DNA of 64,000 nucleotides from Sphingomonas sp. LT1P40 (GTDB lineage: Bacteria; Pseudomonadota; Alphaproteobacteria; Sphingomonadales; Sphingomonadaceae), in assembly GCF_036663835.1 (NCBI RefSeq), contig NZ_JAXOJT010000002.1, positions 62,001-126,000 of the forward strand, read 5' to 3'. The notes under the pieces are model-generated. The model had not been told where the DNA came from and did no database searches. It saw only the letters and a list, made by a program, of their open reading frames with translations. Each line of letters starts with the position of its first letter. Positions within the stretch are counted from its first letter, which is position 1. Position numbers and translations under genes: made by a program. Shown piece by piece: positions 51,245-58,159 of the stretch.

Positions 51245-52270
51245 TCAGCGTGCCAACCGCACCAGATGGCTGCCGCCCGCCTGCTCGAACACCCAGCGCT
51301 GGCCGGTGAAACGCTGAATGATGTCGGCAGCGGTACGGGCATGCTGGCTAGGCTTGACGGTGGTAAAGCTGCCGCCGCCCGCCCCGCCATTGCTCAGCGC
51401 GAACGGCAGCAGCAGCTGATCCGCCAGATACGGCCCGGCAAACGCATCGCTGGCGAGGAACCCCGCCATGCGCTGCCCCGCCTGTTTCGCCAACGACTGG
51501 GCCGACACGCCCAGCCGCCCGAAACCCGTGACGATCTCGGTCGCATGCTCGAACTGCGCCTCCAGCAACAGCGCATTGCCGGGTCCGCATTCGGCGGGCA
51601 GCTCGCGGATGGCGAAAGCGCGCTCGGGCCAGTCGAACAGCTTTCGCACCGTTTCGATCTCGCGCTCGGCAATATCCAACTGAAGGCCCGCGATCAACGC
51701 AGTCGCCGACACGTCGGTCAGCGACCCGCGATCAACGCAGTCGACCGGCGTCAGTTCACCCGGCACGATATCGACCTCGATCCGCCCGCCGCCGCGCGGA
51801 TAGAAGCCGTGGCGGATCAGCCGCATCTCGACCTGCGCACCCATGCGGCGCAGCACCGGCACGAACGCACGCGCGATGAAGTCGAACGGCGGCGCCAGCA
51901 TATTGTGCGTGCCACCCTCCAGCACCAGCCGCGACGGTCCATCCGCCAGCAACAGCGGCATCAATACGGTTTGCAGCACCAGCCCCGTGCTTCCAGCCGT
52001 CCCGACCGCAAAGCGATACTCGCCCGGCGTCACCCGCCCCGGCGTGAAGGCGATCTCCGACGACCCGACCGCCACCCCCTCGGCATGTGCGCCACCGATC
52101 GCCAGCGCGGCCTCGATCGCGGTAACATGCTGACGCATCAGCCCCGGCTTTTCGCGCTTGCCGCGTACATTGGTGATGCGAAACGGCTGCCCGGTGACGA
52201 GCGACAGCGCGCACGCATTGCGCACGACCTGCCCCCCGCCTTCGCCCTCCGATCCGTCGATGATAATCAC
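51245..52270 (-). CDS. rtcA: RNA 3'-terminal phosphate cyclase RtcA
   Basis: 341 residues from a GTG at 52268-52270. Motifs are IDGSEGEGGGQVVRNACALS, ITNVRGKREKPGLMRQH, GSTGLVLQTVLMPLLL, GGTHNMLAPPFDFI, and HGFYPRGGG, with the C-terminal His in FTTVKPSQHARTAAD expected to be the adenylated residue. RtcA converts RNA 3'-phosphate to 2',3'-cyclic phosphate using ATP, which makes ends usable by RtcB. Last gene of the rsr/Y-RNA/rtcB operon; GTGA overlap with the unknown gene before it. Confidence 0.96.
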   Translation of the reverse strand: MIIIDGSEGEGGGQVVRNACALSLVTGQPFRITNVRGKREKPGLMRQHVTAIEAALAIGGAHAEGVAVGSSEIAFTPGRVTPGEYRFAVGTAGSTGLVLQTVLMPLLLADGPSRLVLEGGTHNMLAPPFDFIARAFVPVLRRMGAQVEMRLIRHGFYPRGGGRIEVDIVPGELTPVDCVDRGSLTDVSATALIAGLQLDIAEREIETVRKLFDWPERAFAIRELPAECGPGNALLLEAQFEHATEIVTGFGRLGVSAQSLAKQAGQRMAGFLASDAFAGPYLADQLLLPFALSNGGAGGGSFTTVKPSQHARTAADIIQRFTGQRWVFEQAGGSHLVRLAR

Positions 52271-52731
52271 AATCGTTTCCCGTCATAATAATTGATGTCC
52301 GACATCCACCAGAACATCCAGCTTGCCGCTTTCTTGGCGGGCGATATCCCGAAATCTCCGTCACCAACTTCCACAGCGGCGACAGCCGCTGACAAAGCAT
52401 GCGCCCGTCTTGCATCCGTAGTCAGGATCAGCGCGTCGCCGTCAGGCTCAATGTGCAAATTCTCAAAGGTCGGAAAATACTCAATCCGTACTTTCTCAAA
52501 GTGGCCGTGAGCTTTCTGACCATAATTGGGCACATTGAGTATCGTGTCGGTCACTGCGTTCAGCTTCAAGGTGCGATAGCAAGGCTCTCCGCCCCGCATT
52601 CGATCAAGCAGATTTCGGATTGAGCGACACCCAACAGGGTCGGCGCTGAATTGCCAGCCATGCTTCGGGTTAGCGTAGCGCCAAAGGTAAAGACGGCCCT
52701 CCTGACGCCATTCATTGACTCCATGCATCAT
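52267..52731 (-). CDS. uncharacterised protein between rtcB and rtcA
   Basis: 154 residues from the ATG at 52729-52731 (a GGAAAA site precedes). Text includes GRLYLWRYANPKHGWQFSADPVGCRSI, LLDRMRGGEPCYRTLKLN, PNYGQKAHGHFEKVRIEYFP and a C-terminal WMFWWMSDINYYDGKRL rich in Trp and Tyr. No signal peptide or membrane helix. I do not recognise the family. Its codon use is less G+C-rich at third positions than its neighbours, hinting at later acquisition. Its TGA overlaps the rtcA GTG, so it is coupled to rtcA and is a structural member of the RNA-repair operon. Confidence 0.75.
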   Translation of the reverse strand: MMHGVNEWRQEGRLYLWRYANPKHGWQFSADPVGCRSIRNLLDRMRGGEPCYRTLKLNAVTDTILNVPNYGQKAHGHFEKVRIEYFPTFENLHIEPDGDALILTTDARRAHALSAAVAAVEVGDGDFGISPAKKAASWMFWWMSDINYYDGKRL

Positions 52732-52766
52732 GGTGTTTTCCGGAATGGGACGGTGCGCGCCAAGGG

Positions 52767-53993
52767 TCACCCCTTGACGCACACTACCTGCTTCAGCGTG
52801 TGGACGATCTCGACCAGATCGGCCTGCGCGGCCATCACTGCCTCGATCGGCTTGTACGCGCGCGGCGTCTCGTCGATCACGCTCGCGTCCTTGCGGCACT
52901 CGACGCCCGCCGTGTCGGCGATGTGTTCGTCGAGCGTCACCAGCTTCTTGGCGGCAGTGCGCGACATCACGCGCCCCGCACCGTGCGAGCAGCTGTCGAA
53001 CGATTCCGGGTTGCCTAACCCGCGCACGATGAAGCTCTTCGCGCCCATCGAACCCGGGATGATCCCCATCACGCCCTTGGCCGCGCGCACCGCGCCCTTG
53101 CGCGTCACCAGCACATTCTCACCGAAGTGATTCTCGCGCTGGACGTAATTGTGGTGGCAGTTCACCGCCTCCAGTTCCGCGTCGAACGGCTTGGCGATCT
53201 GGCCCCGCAGCGCGCGGATGACGTTGGTCATCATCATGCGGCGGTTGAGCGCGGCGAAATCCTGAGCCCAGCCGACCGCCTCGACATAGTCGTCGAAATG
53301 GTCGGTCCCTTCCGGGAAGTACGCCAGATCCTGATCGGGCAAATTGATGTGCCACTTGCGCATGTCCTGCTTGGCCAGTTCGATGAAGAACGTGCCGATC
53401 GCATTGCCCACGCCGCGCGACCCCGAATGCAGCATCACCCACACGCGCTGGTCCTGATCCAGGCACAGCTCGATAAAGTGGTTGCCGGTCCCCAGCGTGC
53501 CGAGATGCACGAGGTTGTTCGTGTTCTTCATCCGCGGATGCTTGTCGCACAGCCGGTCGAAGCGCTGGACGAGCGTCGCCCATGCCTCGACGATCGCCGG
53601 GGGCGGATCGCCCCACGAACCGGTGTCGCGCTTGTTGCGGTTCATCGATCGCCCGTGTGGCACCGCCCGCTCGATCGCCGAGCGAATGCCCTCTAGATTG
53701 TCGGGCAGATCGCTTGCCACCAGCGAGGTGCGCGCGGCCATCATGCCGCATCCGATATCCACGCCCACCGCCGCTGGAATCACCGCGCCCTTGGTCGGGA
53801 TCACCGAGCCGACGGTGGCGCCGATGCCGATATGCACGTCGGGCATCACCGCCACATGCTTGAACACGAACGGCATCTGCGCCGCACGGGCGAGCTGGGC
53901 GCGTGCGCCATCCTCGACCGGTACGCCGCGCGTCCACATCTTGATCGGCACGCCGCCTTCGACATGCTGGTAGTCGTAATTCACTTCGGTCAT
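52767..53993 (-). CDS. rtcB: RNA-splicing ligase RtcB
   Basis: 408 residues from the ATG at 53991-53993 with a strong GAGGAGG site; the frame reads on upstream only through the Y-RNA array. Signatures are VAVMPDVHIGIGATVGSVIP, VGVDIGCGMMAAR (metal ligands Asp, Cys), LGTLGTGNHFIELC, LHSGSRGVGN, NCHHNYVQRENH and the GMP-accepting His in DSCSHGAGRVMSR. It joins 2',3'-cyclic phosphate or 3'-phosphate ends to 5'-OH ends with GTP. It follows five Y RNA genes, the last ending 40 nt before its start codon. Confidence 0.97.
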   Translation of the reverse strand: MTEVNYDYQHVEGGVPIKMWTRGVPVEDGARAQLARAAQMPFVFKHVAVMPDVHIGIGATVGSVIPTKGAVIPAAVGVDIGCGMMAARTSLVASDLPDNLEGIRSAIERAVPHGRSMNRNKRDTGSWGDPPPAIVEAWATLVQRFDRLCDKHPRMKNTNNLVHLGTLGTGNHFIELCLDQDQRVWVMLHSGSRGVGNAIGTFFIELAKQDMRKWHINLPDQDLAYFPEGTDHFDDYVEAVGWAQDFAALNRRMMMTNVIRALRGQIAKPFDAELEAVNCHHNYVQRENHFGENVLVTRKGAVRAAKGVMGIIPGSMGAKSFIVRGLGNPESFDSCSHGAGRVMSRTAAKKLVTLDEHIADTAGVECRKDASVIDETPRAYKPIEAVMAAQADLVEIVHTLKQVVCVKG

Positions 53994-54032: not shown

Positions 54033-54133
54033 GCACGGCGACGATGGAGTGACGGGACGTTTTCCGGCGTATGCGGCCGGCGAGGGAGTCGAACCCTCCA
54101 TTACCCGTGTAGTCCCGTTGGCATTCGCCGCGC
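54033..54133 (-). ncRNA. Y RNA 5 (YrlA-like, T arm kept, D arm lost)
   Basis: The 5' strand GCGCGGCGA (54133-54125) pairs with TCGCCGTGC at the 3' end (54041-54033), with one G-U. The inner stem pairs ACGGGAC with GTCCCGT and carries the bulged TAC of the shared motif GGCGAATGC-N5-GGACTACA. The enclosed module has a normal T arm (GAGGG-TTCGACT-CCCTC) followed by a loose CCGG...CCGG stem, but no TAGCTCAG D arm. Nearest the rtcB start, it may also influence its translation. Ends are inferred from pairing. Confidence 0.75.
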
Positions 54134-54145
54134 TTCGGTCAGTAT

Positions 54146-54268
54146 CTGGCGACGAGCGGTGGCGAGACATTTTACTGAGCTACGCGGTTTCCCGCGGGTG
54201 GAGTCGAACCGCCGACCTCCTGCCTTTCGGCAGGTGCTCTCTCCTGTAGTCCCGCCGGCATTCGCCAG
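54146..54268 (-). ncRNA. Y RNA 4 (YrlA-like, with extra GAAA hairpin)
   Basis: Terminal stem CTGGCGA/TCGCCAG, shared 5' motif GGCGAATGC-N5-GGACTACA and 3' strand TGTCTCGCC. The effector module contains an additional hairpin CCTGCC-GAAA-GGCAGG, a T arm (GGCGG-TTCGACT-CCACC, with a C-A mismatch), an acceptor-like stem closed by a tetraloop (CGCGG-GAAA-CCGCG), and a shortened D arm TAGCTCAGTAAA. This order, T arm, closed acceptor, D arm, is a circularly permuted tRNA as in known bacterial YrlA RNAs. Confidence 0.82.
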
Positions 54269-54280
54269 CATTGAGTTTGG

Positions 54281-54410
54281 TCATGGCGACCAGTATTTTG
54301 ACGGACATTCCCGCTCTAACCGCTGAGCTACGGGTCCGAAAACCCGGCGGGAGTCGAACCCGCGACCTGGTGATTAGCAATCAATGTAGTCCGTCAGGCA
54401 TTCGCCATGA
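54281..54410 (-). ncRNA. Y RNA 3 (YrlA-like, most complete tRNA mimic)
   Basis: Terminal stem TCATGGCGA/TCGCCATGA (9 bp, perfect). Inner Ro-type stem TGACGGAC/GTCCGTCA is perfect with a bulged TAC. The module holds an anticodon-arm-like hairpin with loop TTGCTAA (a Ser GCU-like anticodon), T arm GCGGG-TTCGACT-CCCGC, closed acceptor CGGGT-TTTCGG-ACCCG and D arm TAGCTCAGCGGTTAGAGC. Read linearly it looks like a tRNA interrupted by about 60 nt, but 5' and 3' acceptor strands are joined, so it is a permuted mimic and not a working tRNA gene. Confidence 0.87.
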
Positions 54411-54420
54411 TGTTGTTGGC

Positions 54421-54526
54421 CACGGCGACAAGATGTTGGAGGACATGCTCTACCACTGAGCTACCCGCTTGCGCGGAGCGGGACTCGAACCCGCGACACC
54501 ATGTAGTCCTACCGGCATTCGCCGTG
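54421..54526 (-). ncRNA. Y RNA 2 (YrlA-like tRNA mimic)
   Basis: Terminal stem CACGGCGA/TCGCCGTG, shared motif GGCGAATGC-N5-GGACTACA, and 3' strand ATGTCCTCC. The module has T arm GCGGG-TTCGAGT-CCCGC, closed acceptor TCCGC-GCAA-GCGGG (GNRA tetraloop), and D arm GTAGCTCAGTGGTAGAGC. Arrangement is that of bacterial YrlA RNAs. Lies between Y RNA 1 and Y RNA 3 with 10-nt spacers. Confidence 0.85.
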
Positions 54527-54536
54527 ATATTCTCGC

Positions 54537-54635
54537 GGGTCGTGGCGACAAGGTTTCGGTGAGACATTCACCGACGCGGGCACAACCCGCAGCTTCGGTC
54601 CCTGGATGTAGTCCCACCAGCATTCGCCACGACCC
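54537..54635 (-). ncRNA. Y RNA 1 (Ro-stem present, tRNA-like module replaced by hairpin)
   Basis: The longest terminal stem of the array, GGGTCGTGGCGA with TCGCCACGACCC, 12 perfect pairs, starting 7 nt after the rsr stop codon. The inner stem GGTGGGAC/GTCTCACC carries the same bulged TAC. The enclosed part is a single hairpin (ACCGA, then GCGGG-TTGTG-CCCGC, then TCGGT) in which the T loop TTCGANT is lost and no D arm or acceptor stem is present. It is therefore a Y RNA without tRNA mimicry, probably processed from the rsr transcript. Confidence 0.78.
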
Positions 54636-54642
54636 TTGTTCT

Positions 54643-56190
54643 TCATATCTCCACTTGCTTGACGACCTCGACCCAATCGCGCGTCTCGCCGGTGGCAAAG
54701 CGTGCGACGGTGTCGAACACCGCGTCGGAGAAACCCCCGACATTCAGGATGTCGGCACGCCCCTTGGCCTGCGTCGTCCCGTAGGGCTGAATGTCGATGC
54801 AGACGAGCTTCGCATCCGGATTCCGGCGCTTTAGCTTGTCCCATTCGCGCATCGTCGCCGTCGCGCCGTAGCGAGTGGCATCGACCCAGGACTCATTGTC
54901 CGAAACGATGACCACCAGATCGACCTTCGCGCGCTCCGCATTCAGCATCGCCAGCGGTGCCGAGACATTCGTCCCGCCCCCGCCGACACCCGCCAGCTTC
55001 GCCGCATTCACGGCGACACGGGCGTTGGCATCCAGCTTCATCCGCACGACGTCCTGCTCGAATGGCAGCACGCGGGCATCGCGGTTGGTGCGCAGCATCG
55101 CGGCTGCGACCAGTGCCGCGACATCGATGCACCGCACCTTCGACGAGGCACCCTTGCGGTACCCGGTCGCGGGCGAAGTCATCGACCCCGACACGTCGGG
55201 GCACACGACCACCCGGCCCGGCACCGTTGGTACGTTCCGGAGCGAGAACTCCAGCGCGTCCTCTAACGCCTCCTTCACCGCCAGCGGCACACCCTCGCCA
55301 GCCTGACCCAATGCCACCATCAACTGATAGGGCATCGGGCCGACCTTCGCGATCGCGTCACGATCCGTCAGCCGCGCGGCAACCGCCTGCGTCACCCCCT
55401 CCACCGCAAACGCGCCATTGCGCGCCAGCGTGTTGAGGTTCATGCGCAGCGCCTGCCACCCGATCCGCATCGCCAGCTCAGCCCAATTCTCCGCCGAAAG
55501 CGGGAATGCGGTGAACCACTCGAACGGCACCGGCGGCAGCGGCAGCGAATTGTCCGCCTTCCACGCCTCGAACGCGGCGATCTCGACTGGCAGCGCGGCA
55601 ACGTCATAAGGACGCCCGATCAGCCAGCCATAAAACGCCTTGCGCGACGCATCCGCCGGACGCGGGTGAACCATGCGCACGATGTCCGCCAACGACGGAT
55701 CCTTGCCCGTCGCCGCCGCCATCAACTGAGGCATCGAGGCCTGCTCCAGCCAAAGCTGGACCAGTCGCTTCGGCCGCGAGCCGAGCGAGGTGCGCCCGAC
55801 CTGCCCCGAACGCATGATCTGCACAAAGTTGCGCAGCATCCGTCCATTGTCGATCACCCGTCCAAAGACCGGAACCGCCAGATCGGGATCGACGACCGTC
55901 AGATACGCCGCCAGCAATGCCGGCATGTCCTTCATCGCACCGGATGTGCGGGCGTAGATCGCCGCCTGCGCCACGAAATACGGATCGACCGCCTTCGCGG
56001 CCTCCAGCACATTGGCCAGTTGCGTCTCCGCCGCGCCATAAAATGTGTCCGCCAGCGTGCCGGTCGCGGCCAGCTGCGCCAGCTTCGCCTCCGGCCCATA
56101 GCCATAGGCCGGAGCGCCTTCGCGATTCACGCTGTCCGTGCGCGGCAGCAGCTTTGCGATCGCCGAGGCGAAAAGTCCCTTATTGGCCAT
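54643..56190 (-). CDS. rsr: Rsr, bacterial Ro60 orthologue (TROVE and vWA domains)
   Basis: 515 residues from the ATG at 56188-56190 (AAGGGAAG site); the longer frame runs into the tRNA-like leader. The HEAT-repeat TROVE ring (about 1-340: VVDPDLAVPVFGRVIDNGRMLRNF, MRSGQVGRTSLGSRPKRLVQ) is followed by a von Willebrand A domain (about 345-515) with the MIDAS motif DVSGSM, and GGGGTNVSAPLAML and VIVSDNESW. Ro60 proteins bind Y RNAs on the outer ring surface and misfolded RNA in the hole. First coding gene of the sigma-54 operon; the Y RNA array begins 7 nt after its stop. Confidence 0.96.
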   Translation of the reverse strand: MANKGLFASAIAKLLPRTDSVNREGAPAYGYGPEAKLAQLAATGTLADTFYGAAETQLANVLEAAKAVDPYFVAQAAIYARTSGAMKDMPALLAAYLTVVDPDLAVPVFGRVIDNGRMLRNFVQIMRSGQVGRTSLGSRPKRLVQLWLEQASMPQLMAAATGKDPSLADIVRMVHPRPADASRKAFYGWLIGRPYDVAALPVEIAAFEAWKADNSLPLPPVPFEWFTAFPLSAENWAELAMRIGWQALRMNLNTLARNGAFAVEGVTQAVAARLTDRDAIAKVGPMPYQLMVALGQAGEGVPLAVKEALEDALEFSLRNVPTVPGRVVVCPDVSGSMTSPATGYRKGASSKVRCIDVAALVAAAMLRTNRDARVLPFEQDVVRMKLDANARVAVNAAKLAGVGGGGTNVSAPLAMLNAERAKVDLVVIVSDNESWVDATRYGATATMREWDKLKRRNPDAKLVCIDIQPYGTTQAKGRADILNVGGFSDAVFDTVARFATGETRDWVEVVKQVEI

Positions 56191-56213: not shown

Positions 56214-56286
56214 TGGCACCGGTGGCTGGAATCGAACCAGCAGGTGGTGGATTTGGAATCCAGACCGCGCCCATGCGCTCACCGAT
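56214..56286 (-). ncRNA. tRNA(Trp)-like element with encoded CCA in the rsr leader
   Basis: Exactly 73 nt. Acceptor ATCGGTG pairs with CACCGGT (one G-U), followed by discriminator G and CCA. The T arm GCTGG-TTCGATT-CCAGC is perfect. The anticodon arm has loop TTCCAAA (anticodon CCA, Trp) on a four-pair stem. The D region is only 14 nt with no standard GG loop, so it is not a normal tRNA and does not look like the usual bacterial tRNA(Trp). It sits between the -24/-12 promoter and the rsr start, so it is carried by the operon transcript. Role unknown: decoy, RtcB substrate or sensor element. Confidence 0.65.
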
Positions 56287-56316: not shown

Positions 56317-56344
56317 GGGGCGACCGGCCCATTCCGGCCGCCCC
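56317..56344 (-). other. strong leader hairpin upstream of the tRNA-like element
   Basis: GGGGCG and CCGG pair with CCGG and CGCCCC across CCCATT, giving about 11 pairs (one G-U in the minus-strand RNA). It lies in the transcribed leader between the expected start site (about 56388) and the tRNA-like element. It may shield the leader 5' end or attenuate. Confidence 0.5.
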
Positions 56345-56398: not shown

Positions 56399-56413
56399 GC
56401 AGGAGGCGTGCCA
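56399..56413 (-). promoter_or_regulatory. sigma-54 (-24/-12) promoter of the rsr/Y-RNA/rtc operon
   Basis: On the minus strand the text is TGGCACGCCTCCTGC: GG and GC separated by exactly 10 bases, with a full TGGCACG -24 box. The expected start is about 56388, about 200 nt before rsr. The divergent gene encodes the matching activator RtcR. Confidence 0.82.
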
Positions 56414-56428
56414 ATTTGAGGGGATAGG

Positions 56429-56560: not shown

Positions 56561-58159
56561 ATGAAACCACTAACCGTCATCGGGTTCCTTGGCTCCACGC
56601 TCGACGCCAGCAAGTTCGGACCGTCACGCTGGAACAAGTGGCGGCCCTCGGTCGCGCTAACGATGCATGAGGATTTGCGCGTCGATCGCTTCGTGCTGCT
56701 CCACGGCACCCCGCATGCCCGGCTCGCCGACTCGATCGCGGCGGACATCATGTCGGTGTCGCCCGAAACGACCGTCGAACTGCGCCTGCTCGACTTCGCC
56801 GATCCGTGGGATTTCGAGGAGGTTTACGGCAAGCTGCTGGACTTCGCCCGCGCCGAGCCGTTCGATCCGGAGGTCGAAGACTACCTCGTCCACATCACCA
56901 CCGGCACGCATGTCGCGCAAATCTGCATGTTCCTGCTGACCGAGGCGCGCTATCTGCCCGGCCGCCTGCTCCAGACCCAGCCAGCCAAACGCGCTGACGA
57001 TGGCGGCGCGCCGGGGCGCTGGACCACGATCGACCTCGATCTCTCGCGCTATGACAGCATCGCCACGCGCTTCGCCGTCGCCAGTGCGGAAAGCACCTCG
57101 TTCCTGAAATCGGGCATCGACACGCATAACGCCGCGTTCAACCGCATGATCGACGAGATCGAACAGGTCGCGCTGCGTTCGAAAGCACCCATCCTGCTGA
57201 TGGGGCCGACCGGCGCGGGCAAGAGCCTGCTCGCGCGCCGCATTTATGAACTCAAACGCCTGAAGCACCAGATCGCTGGGCCGTTCGTCGAGGTGAATTG
57301 CGCGACGCTGAAAGGCGACAGCGCGATGTCGGCGCTGTTCGGCCACCGCAAGGGGGCGTTCACCGGTGCCGCCGCCGACCGGCCCGGGCTGCTGCGTGCC
57401 GCCGACAAGGGCATGTTGTTCCTCGACGAGATCGGTGAGCTTGGGCTGGACGAACAGGCGATGATCCTGCGCGCGATCGAGGACAAGCGCTTCCTGCCTG
57501 TTGGGTCGGACAAGGAAGCGGCGTCCGATTTCCAGCTGATCGCCGGCACCAACCGCGATCTGGGTGAAGCGGTCGCGGCGGGGCGGTTTCGCGACGACCT
57601 TTACGCGCGGCTGAACCTGTGGACCTTCACCTTGCCGGGATTGGCGGAGCGGCGTGAGGATATCGAACCTAATCTGGACTATGAACTCGACCGCTTTGCC
57701 GAGCGCGAGGGCGACCGTGCGAGCTTCAACAAGGAAGCCCGCCAGCGCTACCTCGCCTTCGCCACCGCGCCCGACGCGCGCTGGCCCGGCAATTTCCGCG
57801 ACCTCGCCGCCAGCGTCACGCGCATGGCCACGCTCAGCCCGAAAGGCCGCATCGACCTGGAATGCGTCGAGGCGGAAATCGTGAGACTGAAACGATTATG
57901 GTCGGGACAGGTCGACGACGGCGCAGGCGTGCTGGCCGAAATGCTGAGTGAGGTGGCACTCGCCGACATCGACCCGTTCGATCGCGTCCAGCTCGCCGAG
58001 ACGATCCGCGTGTGCCGCGCCAGCCGCTCGCTCTCCGAAGCGGGCCGCACGCTCTTCGCTGCCTCCCGCACCCGTCGCAGCACCGCTAACGATGCCGACC
58101 GGCTGCGCAAATATCTCGCGCGGTTCGGCTTGGACTGGAACGGTGTCGCAGCCCGCTAG
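56561..58159 (+). CDS. rtcR: RtcR, sigma-54-dependent activator with CARF domain
   Basis: 532 residues. N-terminal CARF-type ligand domain (about 1-180: [67 protein letters not shown]). AAA+ domain with Walker A GPTGAGKS, intact GAFTGA ([17 protein letters not shown]), Walker [10 protein letters not shown] and the arginine-finger region [12 protein letters not shown]. The C-terminal domain is helical. The CARF domain is thought to sense RNA ends or cyclic oligonucleotides from RNA damage. Divergent from the operon it controls. Confidence 0.97.

Follow-up and report, generated by a model that had tools for sequence, protein, structure and literature searches.

Organization of the rsr-rtcBA locus

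The stretch analysed here, referred to as the window, covers 64,000 nucleotides of Sphingomonas sp. LT1P40 (contig NZ_JAXOJT010000002.1) and carries a putative RNA-repair operon. Along the minus strand, a sigma-54-like site is followed by a leader, rsr, five Y RNA (yrl) genes (54635-54033) that fill the rsr-rtcB gap, rtcB, an open reading frame (ORF) and rtcA, and rtcR lies divergently upstream. The features are listed below.

56561..58159, plus strand, divergent: rtcR, sigma-54 activator with RtcR N-terminal domain (NF038308 824 bits, cut-off 650; Pfam RtcR and Sigma54_activat)
56399..56414, minus strand: sigma-54 promoter-like site TTGGCACGCCTCCTGC, read directly from the sequence in the gap separating divergent rtcR from rsr
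56317..56344, minus strand: conserved leader hairpin with an 11-bp stem and loop AATGGG, kept in relatives' leaders
56214..56286, minus strand: tRNA-like element (ARAGORN) of the Trp(CCA) type as judged by its anticodon, CCA end encoded, abutting the rsr ribosome-binding site
54643..56190, minus strand: rsr, Ro60-like RNA-binding protein of 515 aa (Pfam vWA_Ro60; similarity to PDB 2nvo)
54537..54635, minus strand: yrl copy 1, type-A-like docking base without T-arm (RF02553 38.2 bits; 12-pair end stem)
54420..54527, minus strand: yrl copy 2, classic YrlA-like layout, apparently opened at the anticodon (RF02553 71.5 bits; cluster 58)
54281..54410, minus strand: yrl copy 3, type C, permuted tRNA-like body with anticodon-like arm, anticodon GCU (RF02553 74.6 bits)
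54146..54268, minus strand: yrl copy 4, type E, apparently opened in the D-loop, with a short loop replacing the anticodon loop (RF02553 35.8 bits; cluster 26)
54033..54133, minus strand: yrl copy 5, module without D-arm, made up of a T-arm and an acceptor-like hairpin (RF02553 31.6 bits; nearest kin L128.5 and L136.6)
52767..53993, minus strand: rtcB, RNA ligase (Pfam RtcB 428 bits, cut-off 27)
52267..52899, minus strand: ORF between rtcB and rtcA, no Pfam or NCBIfam match
51245..52270, minus strand: rtcA, RNA 3'-terminal phosphate cyclase (TIGR03399 354 bits, cut-off 250)

The rsr product scores 62.7 bits with Pfam vWA_Ro60 (cut-off 27.7), resembles the solved Rsr structure PDB 2nvo over residues 22-503 (E=2.7e-17) and shows likeness to Ro60 as well. 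With the NCBIfam Rsr equivalog NF041674 it reaches 67.6 bits, far under the cut-off of 900, so that the Rsr of the window belongs to a diverged branch. Rsr relatives (E<=1e-5) are found in 77 plasmid records, 44 of which are from Rhizobium, and in 305 phage records; the protein family therefore travels. For the ORF between rtcB and rtcA, a tblastn search with most of its length returned only short matches near the end of rtcB, in three of the relatives searched.

The features of an RtcR-controlled RNA-repair operon are present, namely rtcB, rtcA, divergent rtcR and a putative sigma-54 site, and from the layout we infer that the rsr-yrl-rtcB-rtcA genes form one transcript. Of the 107 relatives' stretches described below, 85 have a sigma-54-like site no more than 600 nt upstream of rsr. 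The order of rsr, Y RNAs, rtcB and rtcA, together with RtcR and sigma-54, is like that of the rsr-yrlBA-rtcBA operon of Salmonella Typhimurium, in which the operon name given in PMC7790460 points to yrlB and yrlA. Unlike the Salmonella operon, the window holds five YrlA-like genes and no YrlB, an ORF between rtcB and rtcA, and a leader with a hairpin and a tRNA-like element.

Identification of five YrlA-type Y RNA genes

The motif GGCGAATGC-N5-GGACTACA has five exact minus-strand matches, starting at 54628, 54523, 54406, 54266 and 54129, as compared with zero expected by chance (100 dinucleotide shuffles), and it occurs nowhere else in the 64-kb window when up to two mismatches are allowed. 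This bears out a preliminary description of this DNA, which had reported five minus-strand copies of a 16-17-base motif. As also described there, every copy is followed by ATGTC (ACGTC in copy 5) and then by TCGCC, which closes on GGCGA. The spacing given as 60-90 nt was only roughly right, since ATGTC follows at 39-76 nt when measured from the motif end and at 61-98 nt when measured from the motif start. Likewise, the end stems given as 12, 8, 9, 7 and 9 pairs had mixed two ways of counting: with G-U pairs, copies 1-5 have 12, 9, 9, 7 and 9 pairs, and with Watson-Crick pairs only, 12, 8, 9, 7 and 6. In either count, the Rsr-docking base with a closing end stem is found in five of five copies.

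A search with a YrlA covariance model, the check that the preliminary description had suggested, recovered all five copies with Rfam RF02553, each across model positions 1-114; copies 3 and 2 (74.6 and 71.5 bits) lie over the curated cut-off of 69 bits, and copies 1, 4 and 5 (38.2, 35.8 and 31.6 bits) lie under it. The YrlB model (RF02565) reached at best 18.3 bits, on copy 1, against a cut-off of 97, and no YrlB was found in the array. Over the whole genome, only the five copies stand out with RF02553, and the four further matches (at most 20.9 bits) all overlap tRNA genes by coordinate. An Rfam tRNA match at 54339-54470 (30.4 bits), which spans copies 2 and 3, is read as a chance join of the D-arm of one copy and the T-arm of the next.

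Judged by docking base and place, the five are YrlA-type Y RNA genes, a class itself known, and the preliminary assignment to this position between rsr and rtcB stands, with RF02553 matching all copies in an rsr-yrl-rtcB-rtcA operon beside divergent rtcR. Like YrlA (RF02553; Salmonella YrlA, PDB 6CU1), they have the docking base GGCGAAUGC...UCGCC and an operon shared with rsr and rtcBA, and copies 2 and 3, probably also copy 4, carry a tRNA-like module in what looks like circularly permuted order. Earlier papers describe the arms of YrlA as D-, T- and acceptor-like (PMC8394870) and their order as circularly permuted relative to tRNA (PMC11472068). Unlike YrlA, one type here has an anticodon-like arm, one is apparently opened in the D-loop, some are without D-arm, and several types are present in one operon.

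That the copies are instead chance repeats or decayed tRNA genes has a negligible probability. Short tRNA stretches do occur in the modules, such as 18 nt that copy 2 shares with two tRNA-Val and one tRNA-Thr, but the docking base is shared by all copies, no motif matches were expected by chance, two copies exceed the curated Rfam cut-off, and the rsr-rtcB position is kept in relatives; in addition, the end stem (helix 1) covaries across relatives of copies 3 and 4, where covariation was tested, rather than between the five copies. Fresh copying from the genome's own tRNAs was also rejected as a source of the modules, as none of the 47 recovered tRNAs provides such a match and shared stretches are at most 26 nt.

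Arrays in related genomes

Loci with rsr were found in 21 of 397 genomes of a family sample and in 7 of 385 genomes of a class sample (the own genome being in both). Named genomes supplied a further 257 candidate loci, of which the best 80 were added. In total, 108 stretches were examined, 107 of which have rsr; L-numbers label the relatives' loci. After duplicate removal, 91 distinct loci had usable copies, defined by a recognised 3' end and a length of 60-170 nt. The copies per locus number four in 36 loci, three in 24, five in 18, two in nine, one in three and six in one; these counts are minima, since extraction discarded any copy whose 3' partner could not be recognised, and 5 of 338 copies outside 60-170 nt were removed before clustering. 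L112 and L195 (cut by contig end) contributed no copies. In relatives the arrays also sit between rsr and rtcB, and because 79 of the 91 loci carry three to six copies, five copies are not exceptional in the lineage. The "marked expansion" seen in the preliminary description was therefore given up, the census ruling out five copies as a special expansion.

The occurrence of rsr is patchy, and none of the ten other genus members listed has it. Weak RF02553 matches were obtained in 52 of 249 relatives' genomes; the count was restricted to rsr-anchored loci because the three of them that were inspected with best scores of 31-36 bits (L081, L082 and L083) contain tandem tRNA genes and neither rsr nor the yrl motif. 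A single YrlA (72.8 bits, over the cut-off) was found at position 4189 of L070 (genome G011), between rtcR and rtcB in a stretch without rsr. Rsr gave no match in that genome either at E<=1e-10, so that this is a Y RNA without its protein partner.

Among 330 copies for which both comparisons were possible, the nearest relative was a copy of the same array in only three, and in six when the compared loci were limited to those with <75% Rsr identity. These counts rule out recent tandem duplication, and the array copies are old, distinct types. Most clusters hold about one copy per locus: type A has 41 copies in 41 loci, type E 40 in 40, type C 28 in 28, a classic type 33 in 33, and type D 31 in 29. 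Copy 2 of the window falls into cluster 58 (6 copies in 6 loci), copy 3 into type C and copy 4 into type E (cluster 26), and copies 1 and 5 are singletons at the clustering threshold used. By a rough feature rule, 65 of the 91 loci combine a classic anticodon-opened or type C copy with a type E or type A copy. The preliminary description had inferred that Rsr may be loaded with different effectors, and this idea has gained support at the sequence level because relatives carry recurring, distinct types; the differing permutations, the anticodon-like loop of type C, and the tRNA-like element and hairpin of the leader were absent from it. The types appear to join the docking stem to the tRNA at different points, and at least three copies look like rearranged tRNA imitations. 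D-, T- and acceptor-like arms are present in copies 2 and 3, and in copy 4 only if it is D-loop-opened; copy 5 is without D-arm and copy 1 without module.

Type C keeps an anticodon-like arm

Copy 2 looks like the known YrlA form opened at the anticodon, and its minimum free energy (MFE) fold displays T-, acceptor- and D-arms. Type C, represented by copy 3, has an extra hairpin preceding the T-arm, which in copy 3 is a 15-nt insert relative to RF02553. Pairs were counted in 22 of the 28 copies of cluster 54 (three near-duplicates and the longer L069, L168 and L179 being left out): 98.9% of cells are paired, 18 pairs changed on both sides, and none of 500 shuffles did as well. RNAalifold finds the anticodon-like stem unprompted; it has two variable pairs, one with 8 and one with 2 cells in which both sides changed. 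As in tRNA, a 7-nt loop stands on a stem of 5 bp and precedes a variable loop of 5 nt; the stem is made up of three base pairs and of two invariant C-G pairs with the strand after the D-arm, these two being based on complementarity only. The single-sequence MFE fold of copy 3 differs from the tRNA-like fold, which counts against the permuted-tRNA reading. On the comparative evidence, type C keeps an anticodon-like arm with a covarying stem and a changing anticodon.

In the type C loop, U33 is kept in 20 of 22 copies, A37 in 20 and A38 in 21, and positions 34 and 35 vary; the anticodon is not freely variable, since U36 is kept in 18 of 22. U36-A37 is the combination present in t6A-carrying tRNAs for ANN codons.

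The tRNA body was further traced by a doubling test, in which two copies of a module were placed end to end and ARAGORN was asked for a call across the join. For type C, tRNAs were called in 31 of 31 doubled modules, with 14 different anticodons, in none of the undoubled modules and in 0 of 620 letter shuffles. Clusters 54 and 52 together hold 35 copies, and the 31 modules are those selected by an extraction rule requiring the 3-bp stem and CC; because this rule demanded the stem, what the test demonstrates is the completeness of the remaining type C tRNA body rather than the stem. The test is not specific to type C, because the classic clusters 55, 56, 63 and 64 are called as well (24 of 33, 12 of 12, 6 of 6 and 6 of 7, with 13, 9, 1 and 1 abnormal anticodon loops; shuffles 0/660, 0/240, 0/120 and 0/140). 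In the classic clusters, however, it is the artificial join that creates the anticodon loop; in type C the loop is unbroken within the RNA. None of the 6 modules of cluster 58, which includes copy 2, was called; of the 39 type E modules, 4 were, and copy 4 is not one of them.

An anticodon-like loop could serve as bait for anticodon nucleases: the type C loop and the leader element would be cut, either sparing real tRNAs or giving cyclic-phosphate ends that RtcR senses. The kept U33, A37 and A38 around varying positions 34-35 and the switching of type C anticodons between loci fit such a role, and Hughes et al. suggested (PMC7790460) that YrlA could competitively inhibit an anticodon nuclease. 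However, Salmonella YrlA fragments are given as not detected in the same paper, U36 is kept, type E is without the usual anticodon loop, and type C is present in only 33 of 91 loci (feature rule). We consider baiting improbable.

Type E appears to be entered at the D-loop

When aligned with RF02553, copy 4 has some D-arm positions deleted. On its 5' side, the type E module runs from the 3' half of the D-arm through an anticodon-like hairpin, whose loop is short and varies, and a variable loop, which most rows show as AGGTC, to the T-arm and an acceptor-like hairpin capped by a small loop; on its 3' side it terminates in TAGCTCAG, the 5' half of the D-arm. RNAalifold pairs the two D-arm halves unprompted over the long range, and the MFE fold of copy 4 pairs them likewise. 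In 30 of 40 copies (near-duplicates left out; three rows clipped at the 3' end by extraction), 97.9% of cells are paired and 15 pairs changed on both sides, with 0 of 500 shuffles doing as well. The D-stem is invariant in 30 of 30 copies and, as it never varies, lies beyond the reach of covariation, so that it rests on pairing and the tRNA consensus. According to these alignments, the docking stem appears to enter the tRNA body at the D-loop in type E.

Type A, represented in the window by no more than the base of copy 1, may resemble type E; it is a less clear candidate for a D-loop permutation, since its D-stem is ambiguous and RNAalifold favours another pairing.

Reduced copies and the question of drift

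The first 29 nt of copy 1 are identical to those of the first copies in L068 and L143 (147 nt, long modules), so that copy 1 kept the base and lost the tRNA-like module. This condition is not unique, because the short copies inspected by sequence, L124.3, L126.4 and L136.4, are also without T-arm. Short Y RNAs (67-75 nt) recur among relatives, with 7 copies in 7 loci in cluster 3 (L123.3, L124.3, L126.4, L130.3, L133.4, L136.4 and L146.4).

The loss of the module in copy 1 would be in line with the copies being interchangeable tethers, all docking Rsr to PNPase, with the array serving dosage and module differences reflecting drift. Tethering of Rsr to PNPase by a Y RNA is the mechanism reported in Deinococcus (PMC7790460 and PMC8394870), and the copy number, which ranges from one to six, would also suit dosage. 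The window Rsr is by sequence a relative of the solved Rsr (PDB 2nvo), and the model of a Y RNA as tether is borrowed here, by analogy, from RYPER (Rsr-Y RNA-PNPase) of Deinococcus radiodurans. However, the types recur across loci, types C and E keep covarying structures, and drift after recent duplication predicts nearest kin within the same locus, as compared with the 3 of 330 observed. Interchangeable tethers therefore seem unlikely to us.

The operon leader carries a hairpin and a tRNA-like element

A leader hairpin of 10-12 bp is present in 81 of 92 distinct leaders, with the loop AATGGG in 62 of the 81 and a near variant in the others. Among the 11 leaders without hairpin by the same rule, ten belong to loci whose Rsr is at most 70% identical to that of the window. 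The hairpin was dismissed as a genome-wide motif, since it has one place only in the own genome with up to three mismatches allowed.

ARAGORN calls a sense tRNA-like element in 20 of the 92 leaders, the window included, which ends 17-25 nt before rsr in 19 leaders and 48 nt before it in L153. Thirteen are of the Pro(TGG) type, four of the Trp(CCA) type (the window, L124, L126 and L161) and three of others. The Rfam tRNA cut-off of 29 bits is passed by 11 of 14 scanned relatives' elements, and the three Trp-type ones fail; likewise, at this cut-off the window element (56214-56286) had no Rfam tRNA match in window and own-genome scans, despite the ARAGORN call. Its D-arm has a 4-bp stem and a 4-nt loop. 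It is "Trp" by anticodon only, because its best match among the own tRNAs is the T-arm of tRNA-Leu, and a fresh copy of an own tRNA was rejected as its origin, the element being not among the 47 recovered tRNAs and sharing only short stretches with them. The own genome has a normal tRNA-Trp(CCA). Automatic annotation may enter 56214-56286 as a second tRNA-Trp gene.

The Pro type was aligned in 14 rows, 13 of them distinct; L135, in which the anticodon loop lacks one base, was included. Pairing in this alignment is 100%, six pairs changed on both sides and 0 of 500 shuffles did as well. The corresponding figure for the Trp type is 101 of 500 shuffles, with four sequences only, which are too few. 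On a FastTree tree of 84 Rsr rows, in which 26 of 81 inner branches are open, the presence of the element requires 12 changes; types and remnants were labelled by eye, with remnants taken as absent and L183 and L153 as Pro type. Insertions were noted by eye in L139 (anticodon loop region) and L183 (between anticodon arm and T-arm), and decayed-looking remnants in L141, L186, L192, L193 and L177.

The element might also be a captured tRNA gene, or a processing signal for RNase P/Z that frees the rsr message, in both cases unlinked to the Y RNAs. This is a possible but not a favoured explanation: it agrees with the acceptor/T-arm stack and CCA end right before the ribosome-binding site, with the patchy presence and the 12 changes on the Rsr tree, and with SYK-6 (L078), in which the element is additional to a normal tRNA-Pro(TGG). 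However, two main types (Pro and Trp by anticodon) occupy the same operon spot, which capture alone leaves unexplained, and the Pro type keeps its full pairing with six pairs changed on both sides.

A proposed cassette of tRNA-like effector modules

We propose, with a probability of roughly 60%, that the locus is a cassette of five YrlA-family Y RNAs with a common Rsr docking base, each bearing a different effector module made from tRNA bodies opened differently. The proposal starts from what is seen in the sequences, namely the copies, the recurring types, the covariation of types C and E, and the operon. The tRNA body would be opened at the anticodon in copy 2, inside the anticodon stem with the loop kept in copy 3, and at the D-loop in copy 4, and it would be reduced in copy 5 and lost in copy 1.

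According to PMC7790460, broken tRNAs activate this kind of operon in Salmonella and bind the CARF domain of RtcR; against the proposal, tRNA fragments in E. coli bound the CARF domain, not full-length RtcR, and no activation in vitro was obtained (PMC9650030). In the Sphingomonas locus, broken tRNAs may switch on RtcR, upon which Rsr and the mixed RNA set would be made together and Rsr loaded with the set. Each RNA could then tether the Rsr ring to, or lure away, a different enzyme, such as PNPase, RtcB/RtcA, or tRNA-modifying or tRNA-cutting enzymes; different copies would attract different enzymes because the entry point of the stem decides which face of the tRNA mimic is exposed. The anticodon-bearing type and the leader element could be cut instead of tRNAs. 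In a bolder form, which we regard as speculative and improbable, Rsr would be a universal holder for re-permuted tRNA impostors, including a species-varying anticodon bait, and the leader a tRNA-like fuse whose breakage feeds the RtcR alarm.

Similar to tRNA and other tRNA-like structures (tmRNA, viral tRNA mimics), the elements described here have a cloverleaf-like design, a 7-nt anticodon-like loop (type C) and a 5-nt variable loop. Unlike in those structures, the acceptor end of the Y RNA module is closed by a loop, and there is consequently no free 3' CCA to charge. The range of types, the permutations that bear an anticodon or appear opened at the D-loop, and the elements in the leader look new; in the literature searched, which lay outside the main Y RNA survey, review and structure papers, no mention of multi-copy arrays, anticodon-bearing types or the leader element was seen.

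Several types per operon represent natural variants, with the same Rsr, the same docking base and a different exposed tRNA face, through which recruitment by effector modules, beyond the PNPase tethering of Deinococcus, becomes directly testable. Cutting of the anticodon-bearing type or of the leader element in stress would tie the Y RNAs to the damaged-tRNA signal thought to activate the operon. With the mixed set, a single protein may be able to handle or to sense tRNA damage of several kinds.
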